Assembly (NCBI GenBank): GCA_016874755.1 | Contig: VGTH01000007.1 | Location: 1-64,000 of the forward strand | Reading direction: 5' to 3' | DNA: 64,000 bases | DNA from: Deltaproteobacteria bacterium | GTDB lineage: Bacteria > Desulfobacterota > Binatia > UBA9968 | Shown here: piece by piece, positions 32,799 through 41,435 of the stretch | How positions within the stretch are numbered: the stretch's first letter is position 1 | Layout: each line of letters starts with the position of its first letter | The notes under the pieces: generated by a model | Database searches by the model: none | The model's input: the letters and a program-made list of their open reading frames with translations, nothing else | What the model was told of the DNA's origin: nothing | Made by a program: the position numbers and the translations under genes

Positions 32799-34052
32799 AT
32801 GGCTGCTTGGTTCTGGAAATTTCTCGGTGCCGGCGCGGCGCCGCCGCAGTCGCGCAAGAAGCTCGGCGTGGTGGCGTTGCTTTATTTTATCCAAGGCGCG
32901 CCGGCGGCGATTCTTTGGGAAGTGTTGCCGGTCTACTTTCGCATCAACGGTGTCTCGCTCCGCGCCATCGGCGGGCTGCGTTTGCTTGAGTTGCCCTATT
33001 CTTTGAAAGTGTTTTGGTCGCCGCTGGTGCATCGCTATGGCGACCGGCGTTTGTGGATTCTTGCCTGCATGCTCGGCATCGCGGCCGTGCTGTTCGCACT
33101 GCCGTTTGTGGAGGTCGCTGCGGTGGGGTTGATCGTGCTGGTTTTGATTCTCGCGCTGACCACCTTGTCGGCGACCCAAGACGTCGCCATCGATTCCTAT
33201 TCCGTCGGTTTGGTCAACCGTGATGAAGAGGGCGCTGCCAATGGGGTGCGCGCCTCGGCGTACCGCGTGGCTCTTGTGGCGGTGGGTGGTGGATTGGTGT
33301 TTCTCGCAGGTGTGCTGGCATGGAATTCTTTGTTTTTCTTGGCAGCCGCGGTGTTTGTGCTGCTTGCACTCGCGTCGCTCGCCATCCCACAGCTCAGTTT
33401 GCCGCCGCAAGCCCGCGAACATTGGTTCCAAGGCTTCGCTTCTTGGGCCGGCACTTGGCGCGTCGTGCCGCTGATTCTATTCGTCTTGACCTACAAGTTG
33501 GGCGAGTTCGCCATCGGCCCGATGGTGAAGCCGTTTTGGGTCGACTATGGCAAGGCGATCTGGCCGGTGAAAGAAGACTTGATGTTTCAGATCGGGCTGT
33601 TCCCGACCACGTTTGGCATTGTCCTCAGCGTCGTCGGCGCTTTGTTAGGCGGTGCGTTTATTTCACGCTTTGGCATTTTTCACGGCGTCTGGGCGTTGGG
33701 GCTGCTCCAGGCGGTGTCGAACATGGGCTACTCGTTTGTCGAGTGGCTCGATCTCGGCCGCTATGGCCTCTACGGTGCATCGATGTTCGAGTCGATTTCC
33801 GGTGGCCTTGGCACAGCGGCGTTCTTGGCGTTTTTGATGAACGTCTGTGACAAACAGCATGCCACCGTGCAGTACGCGTTTTTGTCTTCGGTGTTTTCTC
33901 TGACCGGACGCCTGATTGGCGCAATCAGTGGTTTGGGTGCGGAGAAGTACGGCTACGGGAATTACTTCGCGATCACGTTTCTGTTGTCAATGCCCGCCTA
34001 TCTGCTTTTGCCGTGGATCAAAGGCTGGATTCACGAAGCGCCGCGCTCATGA
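32799..34052 (+). CDS. AmpG-like MFS permease
   Basis: The 417-residue protein has about twelve helices and the signature ATQDVAIDSYSVGLVNRDEEG, followed by ANGVRASAYRVALV. Those stretches are typical of AmpG/acetyl-CoA-transporter (PAT) family permeases. AmpG imports GlcNAc-anhydroMurNAc peptides for cell-wall recycling, while related members move acetyl-CoA or siderophores, so the substrate is tentative. It converges with senB, overlapping it by 22 bases. A GH84 N-acetylglucosaminidase-like gene lies 2.7 kb on, but no recycling genes are nearby. Confidence 0.8.
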   Translation: MAAWFWKFLGAGAAPPQSRKKLGVVALLYFIQGAPAAILWEVLPVYFRINGVSLRAIGGLRLLELPYSLKVFWSPLVHRYGDRRLWILACMLGIAAVLFALPFVEVAAVGLIVLVLILALTTLSATQDVAIDSYSVGLVNRDEEGAANGVRASAYRVALVAVGGGLVFLAGVLAWNSLFFLAAAVFVLLALASLAIPQLSLPPQAREHWFQGFASWAGTWRVVPLILFVLTYKLGEFAIGPMVKPFWVDYGKAIWPVKEDLMFQIGLFPTTFGIVLSVVGALLGGAFISRFGIFHGVWALGLLQAVSNMGYSFVEWLDLGRYGLYGASMFESISGGLGTAAFLAFLMNVCDKQHATVQYAFLSSVFSLTGRLIGAISGLGAEKYGYGNYFAITFLLSMPAYLLLPWIKGWIHEAPRS

Positions 34053-35023
34053 GCGGCATGAGTCGTGGACCATTTCTCTAGCTCCCGCAGCAACAGCTTC
34101 CAACTATTGATTTCGCGTCGCGGTTGCACCAGCGGTGCGACCCGGGCGCAGCGGCGTTTCAAAGTGTGATAAAAAATCTTGTCGGTTTCGGCGCGGTGCA
34201 GAAGGCGCGCTAGGTCGGCGGTATCGCCGACGCGAAAGTAGCCTGGGTAATCCTTGCCCAAGGTGCCGATCAGGCCGGGAATCTTGCTGGCGATCACCGG
34301 CACGGAAGACGCCAGCGCCTCCGACAAGACGTTGGAGCTGCCTTCCATATGCGAGCTGATGACAAGGAGATGGCTATGCGCCAGTACGCGGCGCGTCATC
34401 CAATAGGGCAGCTCGCCGGCCAGCCGATAGCGCGGGTTCCTGGCTGCCACCTGGCGCGCTTCGACGCCGAGTTTTTTGTCGAGCACTTTGCCAATATGCA
34501 AAACTTCGATCTTCGACGTCGGGGGCAGGAAGCGCAGCGCCCATGGCGTGCACAGCGGGTCCTTTTCTTTGCGCAAGTGGCCAATGACGCAGACCCGGAA
34601 GGTGCGCTCGGGGTTAGGCGGCTGTGGCGCATAGGGCTCGGCCGATTGATAGATGATGCGGGTCTTTGAATGCAGCCGCTTCGGCAGCTCTTCCAGGGCT
34701 TGCTGCTGCAAAACCACCAACCGGGTGGCGAGCTCCAGAGATGGTTGCGCCCGCGCGTCGATTTTAATGTCGTGGTAAATATCCGTGCCGGTCAAAATCA
34801 AGACCAATGGGTTGTTAGGGTAGCGCTCATGATAGGCGCGCACCGAGCGCGCGCTGCGGCGCGCGTGCAGCGCGATTAACATGTCGCAGGGTGCTCCGGT
34901 GTAACGCGGCTCGAAGGTGACCTTGTGACCGAGGGCCCGAACGATCCGGCCGAGACGCACGGCGGTGATCTTATTGCCGTTGTTAAACGCCGGTGGTGTG
35001 GGTATGACGATTCGTATCTTCAC
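34031..35023 (-). CDS. senB: Selenosugar synthase SenB (GT4-type glycosyltransferase)
   Basis: SenB joins selenophosphate to a UDP-sugar to give a 1-seleno sugar for selenoneine synthesis. The 330-residue protein shows the subfamily marks NGNKITAVRLGRIVRALGH, MLIALHARRSA and LTGTDIYHDI (residues 77-86), plus the GT-B donor motif EGSSNVLSEALASSVPV. It starts with GTG, overlapping the TGA of senA as GTGA, so the two are translationally coupled. SenC (a SelD-type selenophosphate synthetase), usually the third gene, is not present in the window. A related thiosugar role would need biochemical testing. Confidence 0.85.
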   Translation of the reverse strand: MKIRIVIPTPPAFNNGNKITAVRLGRIVRALGHKVTFEPRYTGAPCDMLIALHARRSARSVRAYHERYPNNPLVLILTGTDIYHDIKIDARAQPSLELATRLVVLQQQALEELPKRLHSKTRIIYQSAEPYAPQPPNPERTFRVCVIGHLRKEKDPLCTPWALRFLPPTSKIEVLHIGKVLDKKLGVEARQVAARNPRYRLAGELPYWMTRRVLAHSHLLVISSHMEGSSNVLSEALASSVPVIASKIPGLIGTLGKDYPGYFRVGDTADLARLLHRAETDKIFYHTLKRRCARVAPLVQPRREINSWKLLLRELEKWSTTHAAHERGAS

Positions 35024-36444
35024 GGTTTTTCAAGTGCACAGGTGCGAAAACCAGCCCAGACATCGCGCCGATCTGGCGTGTAAAAATTTCTCCAGCTATT
35101 GCGAATGAGCAGAGATGAAGTTGCCCAGCAGCCGCCGCGCAAGACTTTGTGGCTGCCGAACCAGGGCTGCGAATATTCTTTGTAAGGATCAACGGAAAAC
35201 CCCGGGTACGGTTGAAAATCGCTCGCGGTCCATTCCCAAACGTTGCCGATCATCTGGCGGCAGCCAAAGGCGCTGTCGCCTTGGCCGTGGGCGCCGACAT
35301 CGACCGGGCCGCCGCTATGCCAATCGAGATTTGCTTCGGCCAGCGTCGGCGCCTGATTTCCCCAGGGGAAATAGCGCCGCTTTGCAGCTTGCGTAAGTTT
35401 GCCATCGGCTGCTTCAGCTGAGGCAGCAACTTCCCATTCCACTTCAGTGGGTAAACGGCGCTGCGCCCAGCGGCAGTAGGCGTCGGCTTCGTACCAGCTG
35501 ACGTGGAGCACCGGCAATTGTTCGTTCAGCTCGACATAGCGATCGTAGATGCCTTGTTGCCAGTTTGCGCCGGCGCGGCGCCAATAGACCGGGTGATCTA
35601 GGCGGCGCGTGTACTCCAGCCCATCTGACTCCTCGTCCATGTTGCGCTTGAAAAAGCCGGCGAACGATTGTTCCAACTGCGGGGCGCCGCCGGACTCCAA
35701 CCAATGCCAACCGGCGTCACTCCAAAATTGGCGCTCGCGATAACCGCCGGCTTCGACGAAAGCCCGAAATTCTCCGTTGGTCACTGCCCGGCGCGCAATG
35801 CGAAAGGGTTTTACCCGCACTGGGTGCGCCCACTTTTCGTTGTCGAAGACAAAGGGAAAATCGCTTGTCGCGCCGAGCAAAAAATCGCCGCCCGGAATAG
35901 CGACGTCGCCGCCGCAGGGCTCCGCGTGGCGCGACGTCGCCGGTGCGGTGGCGGTCGTTTGTGGTGCCGTATAGCCGAGGGTCTGGCGCGTGTAAGCGAG
36001 CGCCTCGGCATGCATGCCTTCGTGAAACAGCGCGAGCAGATAAAAATAAAACTCAGCGTCGGAGAGCTGCGCTTTGTCGCTAAAGTTGCTTATGCTGCGT
36101 TCAAGCACTTCGGCCATGTAATCGTAGGTTTTTTGGCGCGGCGGCAGCAGCAGCTCCCAGCGGGTATCGTGGGCCACGTCCGTGGAATTGTAAAGCCGAT
36201 CGCCGTCGCTCAGCAAAGGCTCATCGCCGCGCAGATGGCGCAGCACCCAAAACTCGCTAAACCAGGCCACATGGCCGATCTCCCAGAGCGGCGGATTGAC
36301 GATGGCAAGACGCGGCCCGATCATTTGCTCATCGCTAAGGTCGGCGACGAGCGCCAGCGTGTGCGCGCGAAATTGGCGCATGAGCCGCACCAGCTCGCCT
36401 GGGTCGAGCTGGGCGAGCGGATAGTCAACCCGGTTCGTTGTCAT
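35020..36444 (-). CDS. senA: Selenoneine synthase SenA (EgtB-like sulfatase-modifying-factor protein)
   Basis: The 474-residue protein has an N-terminal DinB-like helical domain with the iron-binding histidines in EIGHVAWF (H58) and HEGMHAE (H141, H145). A C-terminal FGE/SUMF domain follows (VAIPGGDFLLGA to NVWEWTASDF, WAGFRTC). EgtB uses this fold to attach a sulfur donor to hercynine; SenA uses the selenosugar made by SenB. Direct coupling to senB by a 4-bp overlap is the main reason for calling it SenA rather than EgtB. ATG 36444 is used; GTG 36450 precedes it. EgtD, which makes hercynine, is 4 kb away. Confidence 0.85.
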   Translation of the reverse strand: MTTNRVDYPLAQLDPGELVRLMRQFRAHTLALVADLSDEQMIGPRLAIVNPPLWEIGHVAWFSEFWVLRHLRGDEPLLSDGDRLYNSTDVAHDTRWELLLPPRQKTYDYMAEVLERSISNFSDKAQLSDAEFYFYLLALFHEGMHAEALAYTRQTLGYTAPQTTATAPATSRHAEPCGGDVAIPGGDFLLGATSDFPFVFDNEKWAHPVRVKPFRIARRAVTNGEFRAFVEAGGYRERQFWSDAGWHWLESGGAPQLEQSFAGFFKRNMDEESDGLEYTRRLDHPVYWRRAGANWQQGIYDRYVELNEQLPVLHVSWYEADAYCRWAQRRLPTEVEWEVAASAEAADGKLTQAAKRRYFPWGNQAPTLAEANLDWHSGGPVDVGAHGQGDSAFGCRQMIGNVWEWTASDFQPYPGFSVDPYKEYSQPWFGSHKVLRGGCWATSSLLIRNSWRNFYTPDRRDVWAGFRTCALEKP

Positions 36445-36450
36445 CGTCAC

Positions 36451-36788
36451 GGTCAGTCGCTAAGTCTTTTTAAGCTTGTGCAACAGGCGTAAGTGAAAAC
36501 GAAGTTGTCAGCGATTTCGACGGGAGCACGCCATTGTCTCCCAGATCGTTGCCGTCCCGATAATCTGCAAATTCAGTGAGCATTGTCTTAGCGAAGTTGT
36601 AGGGTTTGGCGGGGCTACCGATAAACTTTCTCGCGAGCACGGACGAAATGCACCGCTGGTTCGGCGTGGAATCCGTGAGATTGAAATCGTCAATGTGTAC
36701 AAATTTGATCTTTCTTCTGTTTCTATCGTCCTGGCACAAAACCGGCGTAATAACAAGAGCAACACTTAGAAACTCAAATCATGACAAA
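36451..36788. other. Gap between GH84 and senA
   Basis: This region is lower in GC than its surroundings. A minus-strand frame of 89 codons (36470-36739) reads to a stop 26 bases before senA ATG 36444, but it has no ribosome site and no recognisable family. A direct repeat, AAATCATGAC twice, lies at the right end and overlaps the GH84 stop. I see no clear promoter. Confidence 0.4.
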
Positions 36789-37928
36789 TCATGACAAAAC
36801 GTCCTTTCCCATCTGATTGAGCCAATTCTTGAGCTCCAGCGCCCAAGCGCGTCGTCGATGGCCCGTAAAATATTTAAGCGTTGAAAGCAGTTGCCGCTGC
36901 AGCGGCCGCGTCAGCTGGAGCGATTGTGGGTTTTTCTTGGCGGCCTGACGACGCTCGCAATAGAGTCGCAGGTTGCGCCAGTGACGCCGATCGGCGGCGC
37001 CAAATTTTTCTTCCACGATGGTGCGCCAGCTCACCTCGGGGCGATAGGCTCGCGGTGCTCGAGCGTAGTCAAAACAAGTTGCCAACGGCATAAAGCTCAA
37101 CTCTTGCTGCAACAATGGATTGTTCAGATAGCCGTAGACGTGTTGCGGTAAGCGCGGGTCGCGTCCGAGTAGCGGGCCGATGTGCAATTCGTCCGCCATC
37201 GATAGATCGTTAACCGGATAGTTGTCCCACAGGATCAATCGGCGAGCGATTCTCCTTTGGACTTTGCGAACATGCGCAAGAGAGATTTCCTTGGGAACTA
37301 CCGCGGGCCCGGTCCACATGCACGCCACGTCCTGGGGCAGTGTTTCGGCGAGCTTCTCTAAAAAGTTGTCTTCGAAAGCGCCAAAGACGCGCGCCAGTAA
37401 CGGATCGGGCGTGTAGTAGGAAGGGCAGATCCACCATTCGACGTCGTGCCATGAGCTCGGCTGATGCTCGACAATTTTGCCGAGCCAATTTCCCTCGGCG
37501 CGTGCCAGGCTATTGCAATATTGTCGCCGGTCGCGCGCCTGCGTGAGGCGCGAGGGAATGTCGTCGAATAACACGGCGAACGTGCGCACCCCGGCATCGT
37601 AAAAGCGCTGCGCCTTGCGCAGCAAGATGCGCACGGGCTCGTCGTCGGAGAAGCACAAACCGGCGCCCGGGTGAAAGCCATAGACAAATGCGATCTCGCT
37701 TCGCCGTGCCGTGCTAATGAGTCTGGTAAGCTCGCGCCATTGTTTCGGCGGGTAGGGAAAGCGCCAGCGCAGCCGATGGTAGGGATCGTCTTTGGGCGCG
37801 TATAGATAAGTATTCATGCCCCGGGCTTGGCCGAAGGCGAACAGGCGCTTGCGGTGCGCCATGCTCCAGAGCGGGCCGAAGAAGCCTTCGACGATACCGC
37901 GCCGCTGGAATGTTAAGGACCGTGTCAT
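36789..37928 (-). CDS. GH84-type beta-N-acetylglucosaminidase (NAGidase/OGA family)
   Basis: The 379-residue protein starts RRGIVEGFFGPLWS and continues GMNTYLYAPKDDPYHRLRW, hallmarks of the GH84 catalytic domain. The paired acidic residues in FAVLFDDIP (D122, D123) are the expected catalytic pair, which uses the substrate's acetamido group. It has no signal peptide, so it is cytoplasmic, unlike secreted GH84 hyaluronidases. The domain is shorter than in most GH84 proteins and has no accessory modules. It is on the same strand as, and 345 bases upstream of, senA. The position suggests, but does not prove, a link to GlcNAc-bearing intermediates. Confidence 0.85.
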   Translation of the reverse strand: MTRSLTFQRRGIVEGFFGPLWSMAHRKRLFAFGQARGMNTYLYAPKDDPYHRLRWRFPYPPKQWRELTRLISTARRSEIAFVYGFHPGAGLCFSDDEPVRILLRKAQRFYDAGVRTFAVLFDDIPSRLTQARDRRQYCNSLARAEGNWLGKIVEHQPSSWHDVEWWICPSYYTPDPLLARVFGAFEDNFLEKLAETLPQDVACMWTGPAVVPKEISLAHVRKVQRRIARRLILWDNYPVNDLSMADELHIGPLLGRDPRLPQHVYGYLNNPLLQQELSFMPLATCFDYARAPRAYRPEVSWRTIVEEKFGAADRRHWRNLRLYCERRQAAKKNPQSLQLTRPLQRQLLSTLKYFTGHRRRAWALELKNWLNQMGKDVLS

Positions 37929-38038
37929 TTTCAGCGGGTAACTTTGGCACAGCTCGGCACGGCCCACAACCGGGCAAATTTTTGTTAGCGACGCGCTTGC
38001 GCTTGCGGACGATCGACGTAAATATCTAAGCGTTCATT

Positions 38039-38818
38039 ATGTTTCTCGCCATCGTACTGTTGCTCGCACTGGCGCCGCCGCTGTGCGGCGCGCAATCGCC
38101 GACGGCGATGGTGCGCGTTCCTGCCGGCGCGTTTCTGATGGGCAGCAACGACGGCCCGGAGGATGAGCGGCCGCAGCACAGCGTTACTCTGGCGGAGTTT
38201 TTCATCGACCGCACGCCGGTGACCAATAGACAGTTCGCCGAATTCTTAGATGCACTCGGGCCGCGGGGAACGCAAGGAGAGAAGTACTACGATATCGACG
38301 ATAACGATGCGCGGGTGCACCGGGTCGGCGGCAAATGGCGCGCGGATGCCGGGCATGAGAATCATCCCGTGGTGGAAACATCGTGGTTCGGCGCGTTAGC
38401 TTTTTGCCGGTGGGCTGGCAAACGTCTGCCGACGGAAGCCGAATGGGAAAAAGCCGCGCGCGGCAGCGACGGTCGTAAGTATCCCTGGGGCAACGAAGCG
38501 CCTGATCGCACGCGCGCTCACTTCGGCGCCGGTTGGAACGATCTGCGGCCGGTGGACGGCGCGCCGAAGGGCGCCAGCCCCTACGGAGTATTCGATATGG
38601 CGGGCAATGGGTGGGAGTGGGTGAGCAGCGCCTACCTGCCTTATCCCTACGATGCTAAGGATGGTCGCGAGGAGTTGAGCAAGGATCAGGTCCGCGGCAC
38701 AAGAGGCGGTGGCCATGATTCGCGCCCCGATGAGCTAACGACGTCTCACCGCGGGCGCCAGGTGTCGCGCAATTTTCGCTCGGGCCATCACAACATCACC
38801 TTTCGCTGCGCGCGTTAA
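38039..38818 (+). CDS. Secreted SUMF1/FGE-like domain protein
   Basis: The 259-residue protein has a signal peptide (FLAIVLLLALAPPLCGAQ) and a single sulfatase-modifying-factor domain with VPAGAFLMGSNDGPEDE, TPVTNRQFAEFL, KRLPTEAEWEKAARG and the end FRCAR. The two cysteines of genuine formylglycine-generating enzymes are absent: the matching stretch reads RGGGHDSRPDELTTSHRGR. A non-catalytic or different function is therefore likely, in the periplasm. It is divergent from the GH84 gene. Being a homologue of the SUMF domain in SenA, it may simply share the fold. Confidence 0.8.
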   Translation: MFLAIVLLLALAPPLCGAQSPTAMVRVPAGAFLMGSNDGPEDERPQHSVTLAEFFIDRTPVTNRQFAEFLDALGPRGTQGEKYYDIDDNDARVHRVGGKWRADAGHENHPVVETSWFGALAFCRWAGKRLPTEAEWEKAARGSDGRKYPWGNEAPDRTRAHFGAGWNDLRPVDGAPKGASPYGVFDMAGNGWEWVSSAYLPYPYDAKDGREELSKDQVRGTRGGGHDSRPDELTTSHRGRQVSRNFRSGHHNITFRCAR

Positions 38819-39477: not shown

Positions 39478-40407
39478 ATGGATGTGCAGGAAAGCCGGGA
39501 TGACCTCTCCGGCAGGTTCAATATTGCGCTCGCCAGTTTCTACGCGGCGCTTTGGCTGTTGCAATATTTCCTGATGCCGCTTTTTTTACTGCCCAAGGAT
39601 CGTGGTTGGGCCTGGCTGCTCTTGCCACTGGCGCTGCTGAACAATCCCTATTGGAGCCTTTTGCACGAAGCGATCCACGATCTGTTTCATCCACAGCGTC
39701 AGCTTAATGCCTTCTTTGGCCGCATGCTGTCGGTGCTTTTCGGTTCGCCGTTTCGCATCCTGCGCTTGAGCCACCTTTTGCACCACAAGCTCAACCGCAC
39801 CTTGGCTGAAGCCACCGAACCTTACGATGCCAGCAAGACCTCCTGGACACGGGCGTCGCTGGGCTACTATTTCCAAATCTTCGGCGGCTTATATCTTGGC
39901 GAATTGATGAGCTCGGCGTTGTTTTTTCTGCCCAAAGCGCTGCTGCGCCGCGTTAAGGATCGCTTCATCGATCCCAAGTCGGTCAGCGGCATCCTGATGC
40001 AAAGCTGGACCCAAGATGCCGCGCTGCGCGAGATTCGCCAAGACGGCGCGCTAATCCTGTTGTGCTTGGGCCTGGCTTTTTACTGCTATGGCGAGAATTG
40101 GCCGATGCTGTTGGGAGTCTCGGCCGCGCGCGGTTTTTTGATTTCGTTCTTAGACAACGTCTATCACTACCGCACGCCCATCGACGATGTTTTTTACGCA
40201 CATAATTTGCGGCTTCCCGCGCTTGCGGCGAAGTGCTTGTTGAACTTTAATCTGCACGGCATCCATCATCAAAACCCGGCAATCCCATGGCACCGGCTGC
40301 CGGCGAGCTTCGCCCAACAAAGGGAAATATTTCATGGCAATTATTTTGCGGCGGCAGCCAGCCAGCTCGGCGGTCCGATTGCGGCAGAAAAGTTGGTGCG
40401 GCACTAA
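39478..40407 (+). CDS. Fatty acid desaturase/hydroxylase superfamily membrane protein
   Basis: The 309-residue membrane protein carries three histidine clusters: HEAIHD, HLLHHK and NLHGIHHQNPAIPW. These match the diiron-binding boxes of the fatty acid desaturase superfamily (HxxxH, HxxHH, HxxHH). Hydrophobic stretches around residues 20-60 and 130-220 fit the usual membrane topology. It starts one base after the LysE stop. The stop overlaps the convergent egtD stop by four bases. The substrate is not evident, and members also include carotenoid and amino-group oxidases. Confidence 0.85.
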   Translation: MDVQESRDDLSGRFNIALASFYAALWLLQYFLMPLFLLPKDRGWAWLLLPLALLNNPYWSLLHEAIHDLFHPQRQLNAFFGRMLSVLFGSPFRILRLSHLLHHKLNRTLAEATEPYDASKTSWTRASLGYYFQIFGGLYLGELMSSALFFLPKALLRRVKDRFIDPKSVSGILMQSWTQDAALREIRQDGALILLCLGLAFYCYGENWPMLLGVSAARGFLISFLDNVYHYRTPIDDVFYAHNLRLPALAAKCLLNFNLHGIHHQNPAIPWHRLPASFAQQREIFHGNYFAAAASQLGGPIAAEKLVRH

Positions 40408-41435
40408 ATGGACTTCTTGAACAGCAGCAGGGAGAACCATTCTTTAGCGTCGGTGAAGTGGCCGACGCTGTGTAGGCCGAAATAGCGAAACTGCTCTTGC
40501 AAACGGAGCGGGTCGAACTTGCGGCTGATCTCGACCAAGATTCTTTCATTTTTGTGCCAGTGAAAAGCTGAGCCGTAGCTGGGGAAGTGAATTTCCTGAG
40601 CCGCATTGGCGACGGCATACATTTCGATTTGGCTCCACTCCGGGTTGAACCACGAATGGTAGCGCATCTTGCTTGCGTCGAAGTTGCTGCCGGTCAGCCG
40701 GTTGATGTTGAGAAAGACATTTAGAATGAATTCGGCGGTGAGTCCCTTTGCGTCGGCGTAAGCCGGTTCCAGAGTGTTCACATCTTTTACGCGGTCGGCG
40801 CCGAGTAGCAGAAAATCATTGGGGCCCATGGCGTCAGCCAGCTCGCTAAAGAAGTGCACGAAGGCCGGCGGATTGAAATTGCCGATGGTGCTGCCGAGAA
40901 AAACGAACAGCGTCGGCAGCGCTCTGTCGATGCTGCCAAAGCCGGTCTCGTAACGGGAGTGCAGGCCGTGAAATTCGACGGCGGGAAATTCTCTGGCAAC
41001 GGCGTCACGCGACGCCTGCAGCCCCGAAATGCTTACGTCGATGGGGGCGAAGATCGTGCGGCTGCGCTGGAGTGTTTGTGCGGTCAGCAAATGGACCGTT
41101 TTCTTGCTGAAGCCGGCGCCCAGCTCAACGATGCACTCCACCGGCGCCGCGGCGATGATTTTTTCGGCATCGCGCTCGAGGATGCTGTTTTCGGTGCGCG
41201 TCAGATAGTATTCCGGCAGCTCGCAGATTTGCTCGAACAGCTCGGAGCCGCGCTCGTCATACAGATGAAAGGCTTCCAACCAGCGCGGTTGGTCCCACAG
41301 GGTTTTCATGACTGAGCGCGCCGGATCTTCGATGTGATTCCCGCCCACCGGTGCCCAGATGGCCGGTTCTTCCGAATGCCATAATTGTTTTTGGCCCGCG
41401 GCAAAAAACTCGGGTTTGCATGTGATCGCGCTCAT
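40404..41435 (-). CDS. egtD: Histidine N-alpha-methyltransferase EgtD
   Basis: EgtD trimethylates histidine with SAM to give hercynine, the shared precursor of ergothioneine and selenoneine. The 343-residue protein has the signature LPEYYLTRTENSIL (76-82 core), the SAM loop VELGAGFSKKT (about 104-113), PIDVSISGL and FLGSTIGNFNP. The methyltransferase is divergent from the ABC transporter at 41501, with only 65 bases between starts. Its partner enzymes SenA and SenB lie 4-6 kb away on the same strand. Confidence 0.92.
   Translation of the reverse strand: MSAITCKPEFFAAGQKQLWHSEEPAIWAPVGGNHIEDPARSVMKTLWDQPRWLEAFHLYDERGSELFEQICELPEYYLTRTENSILERDAEKIIAAAPVECIVELGAGFSKKTVHLLTAQTLQRSRTIFAPIDVSISGLQASRDAVAREFPAVEFHGLHSRYETGFGSIDRALPTLFVFLGSTIGNFNPPAFVHFFSELADAMGPNDFLLLGADRVKDVNTLEPAYADAKGLTAEFILNVFLNINRLTGSNFDASKMRYHSWFNPEWSQIEMYAVANAAQEIHFPSYGSAFHWHKNERILVEISRKFDPLRLQEQFRYFGLHSVGHFTDAKEWFSLLLFKKSI

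Follow-up and report, generated by a model that had tools for sequence, protein, structure and literature searches.

Within the window, i.e. the whole 64,000-nucleotide stretch of DNA that was analysed, a gene coding for a 379-aa enzyme with the fold of the GH84 beta-N-acetylglucosaminidases is found at 36789-37928 on the minus strand. Its open reading frame extends from 36789 to 37967 (-), the upstream GTG start giving a product of 392 aa and the ATG at 37928, which agrees with the starts of the aligned homologues, one of 379 aa. The protein matches the NAGidase family PF07555 with 277 bits (E = 2e-82; cut-off of 25) and is the sole PF07555 match of the whole 5.56-Mb genome; its score against the GlcNAcase equivalog NF041654, a GH84 model of 732 positions, is 190 bits, below the cut-off of 1000. 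The PF07555 score and the position of the ATG bear out the GH84 identity and the gene end at 37928 given in an initial annotation of this DNA. As had also been proposed, the enzyme has no signal peptide, since its homologues start alike and the first strand of the barrel already begins at residue 9 of the AF2 model, which leaves no room before it; the protein is predicted to be cytoplasmic.

Downstream of the GH84 gene, a gap of 338 bp (36451-36788) is followed by genes for a SenA-family selenoxide synthase (35020-36450) and a SenB selenosugar synthase, a Se-glycosyltransferase (34031-35023), which overlap by 4 bp. All three genes are on the minus strand, in agreement with the initial annotation, GH84 being upstream. 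No terminator-like site was found inside the GH84-senA gap, and a promoter scan of the junction gave 0 sigma-70-like matches in 36300-38150, vs. 0.9 expected. The names senA and senB given earlier to these neighbours hold by family scores, SenB reaching 377.6 bits against TIGR04348 (cut-off of 300) and SenA 494 bits against NF041186 (cut-off of 420). According to the alignment, SenB keeps the equivalents of VpSenB N20, T23, K158, E231 and E239. As for senA, the name is nevertheless loose: the protein is a long form (DinB_2 and FGE-sulfatase domains) whose sequence is nearer to OvsA (8ux5), the selenoxide synthase of ovoselenol synthesis, than to 8ryz, the SenA of known structure. With phmmer, OvsA scores 331 bits and the SenA chains 256 bits, the identities being 39.9% to OvsA (466 columns) and 34.1% to SenA 8ryz (434 columns). 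In a whole-length tree, OvsA groups among the long SenAs of the class (support 92/96), on a long branch; the scores of the 8ryz row may be lowered by its having been pieced together from three aligned segments. Over a 71-residue C-terminal segment, the window SenA has 42 identities to SenA 8ryz and 43 to OvsA.

SenA leads to selenoneine, with selenium on C2 of hercynine, and OvsA to a C5 product. An EgtD-like histidine N-methyltransferase is encoded at 40404-41435 (-), with 299 bits to PF10017 and 283.2 bits to TIGR03438, just below the cut-off of 290.9. It presumably supplies hercynine and thereby argues for hercynine as substrate and selenoneine as product; the end product may nevertheless be a 5-seleno compound in place of selenoneine. 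Three plus-strand genes lie between GH84 and the EgtD-like gene, coding for SUMF1-like, LysE-like and fatty-acid-desaturase-like proteins. The first of them, a small FGE-sulfatase protein at 38039-38818 (+), divergent from GH84, has 110 bits to the SenA model, is related to the C-terminal domain of SenA/EgtB and, by eye, has an apparent N-terminal signal sequence. Concerning senC/selD, no selD match was found on the contig of the window (C7); a SelD over the cut-off is located elsewhere in the genome (G000:C16:6375-7301), with one in-frame TGA, and would thus probably be a selenoprotein. An in-frame TGA is common to most of the full-length SelD matches of the relatives. The same genome also holds a second EgtB-like gene (G000:C15:87292-88334, L185), which is frameshifted or misassembled, since its match to the SenA model is split into two successive parts that are not in the same frame.

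The AF2 model of the GH84 enzyme (pLDDT 89.8, pTM 0.89) displays the (beta/alpha)8 barrel and the helical C-terminal domain, and superposes on the Thermobaculum terrenum OGA 5diy with a Z-score of 40.1 (rmsd 2.4, 359 residues, 33% identity) and on human OGA (hOGA) with a Z-score of 39.3 over about 360 residues, C-terminal helices included. The catalytic pair D122-D123 aligns with D174-D175 of hOGA, and the sugar-pocket residues G15, K46, N236, D241 and N270 with G67, K98, N280, D285 and N313, the roles of these hOGA residues being those given in the available part of PMC10636738. All seven residues are invariant across the 20 rows of an alignment from which one copy without the catalytic pair (L074) had been left out. 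With its catalytic and pocket residues kept in an OGA-like model, the window GH84 is therefore expected to be a competent beta-GlcNAc hydrolase, a prediction drawn from sequence and model.

The copy lacking the pair belongs to G002, a relative in the window's own genus, whose GH84 (L155:769-1779; same contig as L074) is 339 aa long and has lost, in frame, the stretch with the two aspartates. Of the 21 class genomes whose locus was read, 20 have the pair, as do 18 of 19 named loci. The exception may be an inactive gene, although faulty assembly is possible, and as one draft genome among the 21 it leaves the odds of pathway membership and of a release role unmoved.

For the co-occurrence of GH84 and SenA, the class was sampled with 148 genomes; SenA was counted when over the NF041186 cut-off, and at most 12 and 13 first-look candidates per genome were scored for SenA and GH84, respectively. 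SenA was found in 28 genomes and the subfamily to which the window GH84 belongs in 23 (best piece of 385-712 bits, vs. at most 234 bits for GH84s outside the subfamily), all of them among the 28. At E ≤ 1e-20, none of the 120 class genomes without SenA over the cut-off has the subfamily; three of these, from family f1 (G003, G011 and G022), hold SenA pieces below the cut-off, and G011 a GH84 remnant of 31 positions close to a contig end. The class-wide Fisher value is 1.9e-22, a figure that takes no account of common ancestry and should not be read as a true probability. The adjacency of GH84 to senAB is conserved as well: in 22 of the 23 subfamily genomes, GH84 shares contig and strand with a senA match and lies 5' of it, 40-2,726 bp apart. 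The distance between match ends is 40-404 bp in 16 genomes and 986-2,726 bp in six. In the 23rd genome (G006), the two genes are on separate contigs; in G017, what is linked to GH84 is a fragment of senA (334 bits) at the end of the contig, with a full copy on another contig.

This co-directional arrangement, which spans two families (f1 and f3) of one order, strongly supports the link between GH84 and selenium metabolism suggested by the initial annotation, although within a single order it may partly reflect shared descent. An adjacency peculiar to the window genome can be rejected on the same 22 of 23 genomes. Five SenA-positive genomes have no subfamily member. In two of them (G013 and G021), the contig extends no more than about 2.1 and 0.6 kb, respectively, beyond senA on its upstream side, and the other three (G104, G105 and G106) belong to another family; GH84 is absent from the 18-20 kb around senA and senB of G104 and G106 (locus L173 in the latter). 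GH84s outside the subfamily, at most 40% identical and with at most 234 bits, were found in 10 class genomes and have no senA linkage: they are on contigs other than those of the SenA-like matches or, in G113, 160 kb away.

An alpha/beta-hydrolase gene is present in or near the GH84-senA unit of eight genomes, either within the gap (L159:7956-8771, L160, L165, L166, L168 and L181) or 5' of GH84 (L154:1282-2148 and L156). The six wider gaps all contain this gene, and the three widest a glyoxalase-fold gene too. A record named Syntrophobacter sp. SbD2 (L061) has the same SenA coordinates as G004:C17, from the window's genus, and its name looks misassigned.

As for the other neighbours, of the six window genes tested, GH84 alone stays with senA-senB in both families. 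Among the 16 f1 loci fetched (two of them, L157 and L158, from one genome), an AmpG-like MFS gene was found in 14, LysE in eight, EgtD in seven, the desaturase in six and SUMF1 in five. At the five f3 loci, two of them short, of high GC and with neighbours counted by tblastn, none of these five genes was found, vs. GH84 and SenA at all five. The fetched loci had been picked for holding GH84 or SenA; a less biased measure is the presence of GH84 among SenA-positive genomes, which is 16 of 18 in f1 and seven of seven in f3. In the window, the AmpG-like MFS transporter gene (32799-34052, +) is convergent with senB and has 247 bits to TIGR00901, below the cut-off of 350; its product is a candidate transporter for the pathway product or for a GlcNAc compound.

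When 84,980 species genomes were scanned by pattern, 584 GH84 loci were confirmed, 80 of which were listed. Among these 80, 19 are 57-68% identical to the window GH84, the next best being 40% identical. A SenA-family gene is in view at 15 of the 19, the other four all being named Betaproteobacteria; at the 61 non-subfamily loci listed, no SenA or SenB match was found in the DNA examined. Among plasmid records, 88 match GH84 and none reaches 60% identity. Of 47 GH84s placed in a tree, the 25 subfamily rows are monophyletic, with a support of 100/100 and a stem length of 2.1 changes per site. Thirty-seven positions are fixed within the subfamily and rare in 63 other GH84s, mostly from Bacillota. 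Two of the changed positions face the aglycone in hOGA: L242 aligns with Tyr286, which presumably has an aglycone role, and F17 (ATG numbering) with Tyr69, which contacts and anchors the substrate peptide in the hOGA complex, as described in the accessible portion of PMC5610315. All 22 subfamily rows have Phe at the Tyr69 equivalent and Leu at the Tyr286 equivalent; in the 63 other GH84s, the former is Tyr in 61 and Phe in two, and the latter Tyr in 30, Phe in 16 and Leu in two. With the sugar pocket constant and the aglycone-side positions changed throughout, the subfamily would therefore appear to act on GlcNAc bound to a new, fixed partner.

Beyond this order, 399 genomes of one betaproteobacterial order were searched, with at most four first-look candidates scored per genome: 89 have SenA over the cut-off, one has the GH84 subfamily and four have more distant GH84s. 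GH84 is therefore an addition in some lineages and not a requirement of the pathway. The four subfamily-bearing betaproteobacterial genomes all have SenA over the cut-off, against this background of 89 in 399 (p = 0.0025, or 0.05 if two origins are assumed, neither value being fair in view of shared descent), and three of their four GH84s group together in the tree. No GH84 was found near their SenA genes in the 6.7-18 kb fetched, and no sen gene was seen beside their GH84s, whose contigs show 0-4 kb on the 3' side.

GH84 enzymes cleave the beta anomer of GlcNAc with retention. In the parts of PMC10891094 and PMC10702425 that are available, VpSenB is described as favouring UDP-GlcNAc over UDP-GalNAc and UDP-Glc. 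Likewise, the portion available of PMC10903977 describes the SenA product, the selenoxide of hercynyl-SeGlcNAc in beta configuration, as either fragmenting spontaneously or being reduced by thiols or ascorbate to the selenoether. The release step, in the available text of PMC10702425, is a spontaneous syn elimination that involves no glycosidase, an elimination also found in that of PMC11639659. The suggestion of the initial annotation that GlcNAc is a possible SenB sugar thus agrees with the chemistry published in these excerpts, a preference for UDP-GlcNAc and a beta-seleno product that fits the substrate of a GH84; the selenoether, a beta-GlcNAc conjugate, has the same stereochemical fit. 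Alkyl (Cys-linked) S-GlcNAc is described as stable and non-hydrolysable in the part available of PMC8386111, so cleavage would need a better leaving group, in the form of an imidazole selenol. The selenoimidazole should indeed be a far better one than an alkyl thiol. Among the matches listed from the non-subscription literature, judged by titles and abstract openings, no glycosidase connected with selenoneine or selenosugars was found.

Taken together, the enzyme quite probably belongs to the selenium pathway in some form. We slightly favour, from the sequences, a role as an added step of the SenB/SenA pathway that would free selenoneine or a related selenol from the GlcNAc of the SenA product. 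In such a scheme, SenB would make beta-seleno-GlcNAc from UDP-GlcNAc, and the SenA-family enzyme would couple this selenosugar to hercynine (or histidine), giving the selenoxide. Part of the selenoxide would lose its sugar spontaneously, while thiols would reduce another part to hercynyl-Se-GlcNAc, a stable selenoether. GH84 would then hydrolyse the beta-Se-GlcNAc bond of the selenoether by substrate-assisted (oxazoline) catalysis, with selenoneine (or its 5-seleno analogue) and GlcNAc as products, the latter returning to the UDP-GlcNAc pool. We infer that the substrate is a Se-glycoside, that it is the selenoether and neither the selenoxide nor the free selenosugar, and that GlcNAc is the carrier sugar in this organism. 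The product of OvsA also carries the SenB sugar, and the proposal holds for a SenA- or an OvsA-type product if both do. That the subfamily as a whole would be a dedicated selenoglycosidase, with an enzymatic release and the sugar as a temporary selenium carrier that is cut off and recycled, is put forward more tentatively, at a little under even chances. Counting against a release role are the spontaneous elimination of the published pathway, the SenAs mostly without GH84 in the Betaproteobacteria sampled, the four betaproteobacterial GH84s with no sen gene in view, the absence of GH84 in G104-G106, the pair loss in G002, the senA fragment of G017, the described stability of alkyl S-GlcNAc and the gaps of up to 2.7 kb.

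The GH84-senA linkage would also fit an enzyme of the same pathway that does not touch the SenA product and acts on free 1-seleno-GlcNAc, or on mis-made 1-thio-GlcNAc, as a safety valve giving back selenide and GlcNAc whenever hercynine runs low. A thio-sugar by-product is plausible, SenB discriminating against thiophosphate just 10-20-fold in the available text of PMC10702425. Hydrolysing the pathway's own intermediate would, however, be futile, and the invariant aglycone-side changes suggest a specific and larger aglycone; this explanation is considered unlikely. Rather less probable again is a hydrolase of cell-wall or GlcNAc salvage working with the AmpG-like transporter (32799-34052), its adjacency to the sen genes being historical. 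The convergent MFS gene does match the AmpG family TIGR00901, although below the cut-off, and is present in 14 of 16 f1 loci, but it is missing from all five f3 loci (two short), where GH84-senA persists, and no subfamily member was found in the 120 class genomes without SenA over the cut-off. GH3 enzymes speak both ways: with GH3 in none of the nine f3 genomes (G024-G032), GH84 could replace NagZ there, and one GH84-bearing f1 genome (G016, 87% complete) is also without GH3, while the window genome has a NagZ-type GH3 of its own (243 bits to NF003740, cut-off of 207). A replacement of NagZ by GH84 was consequently rejected for the window genome, the f3 genus being excepted. NagZ-type GH3s are found in 19 of 23 f1 genomes vs. 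none of nine f3 genomes.

A bacterial O-GlcNAcase acting on proteins, to which the OGA-like fold and active site would point, is highly improbable. The equivalents of hOGA Tyr69 and Tyr286 are changed, and the O-GlcNAc transferase family PF13844 is unmatched in 38 of the 39 genomes searched, including that of the window, the same search having matched the family in two of 14 control genomes. Protein O-GlcNAc cycling was rejected for the window genome on this lack of a PF13844 match.

The bacteria in which the GH84 subfamily is seen next to sen genes form a single order, from soil and groundwater. Should release of the selenol by GH84 from the selenoether be correct, such sen loci would encode a complete pathway of SelD, SenB, SenA and Se-glycosidase, vs. 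the spontaneous release in Variovorax, and some bacteria would use an enzyme for the release where the selenoether has otherwise been reported as a side product. We know of no other glycosidase with a physiological selenoglycoside substrate, and this one would be the first. In genomes, the gene would moreover mark the use of GlcNAc as carrier sugar in vivo, and its product would be a tool enzyme for the production of selenoneine.

When compared with known systems, the best match of the window GH84 in both sequence and structure is the Thermobaculum terrenum O-GlcNAc hydrolase 5diy (228.8 bits), which is about one third identical and shares the WDN and YPVND motifs, but in which F17 and L242 of the subfamily are replaced by Tyr and Gly, respectively. 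The human and Clostridium perfringens O-GlcNAcases have the barrel, the catalytic pair and the GlcNAc pocket in common with the window enzyme, which differs in being short, predicted to be cytoplasmic and without extra modules, and in having Phe and Leu at the Tyr69 and Tyr286 positions. In ergothioneine synthesis, EgtC and EgtE strip the carrier from the EgtB product, EgtC as an amidohydrolase and EgtE as a C-S lyase; they resemble the proposed GH84 in carrier removal and differ in not being glycosidases. As in the senA, senB and senC cluster of Variovorax paradoxus, senB and the SenA-family gene adjoin and overlap in the window, and the GlcNAc-selenosugar chemistry, as published in the excerpts available, would be in common, whereas the window locus has an added GH84 in front, selD elsewhere in the genome and a long, OvsA-like SenA. 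Finally, OvsA belongs to the same clade as this SenA, from which setting the window locus differs by its EgtD-like gene, pointing to hercynine.
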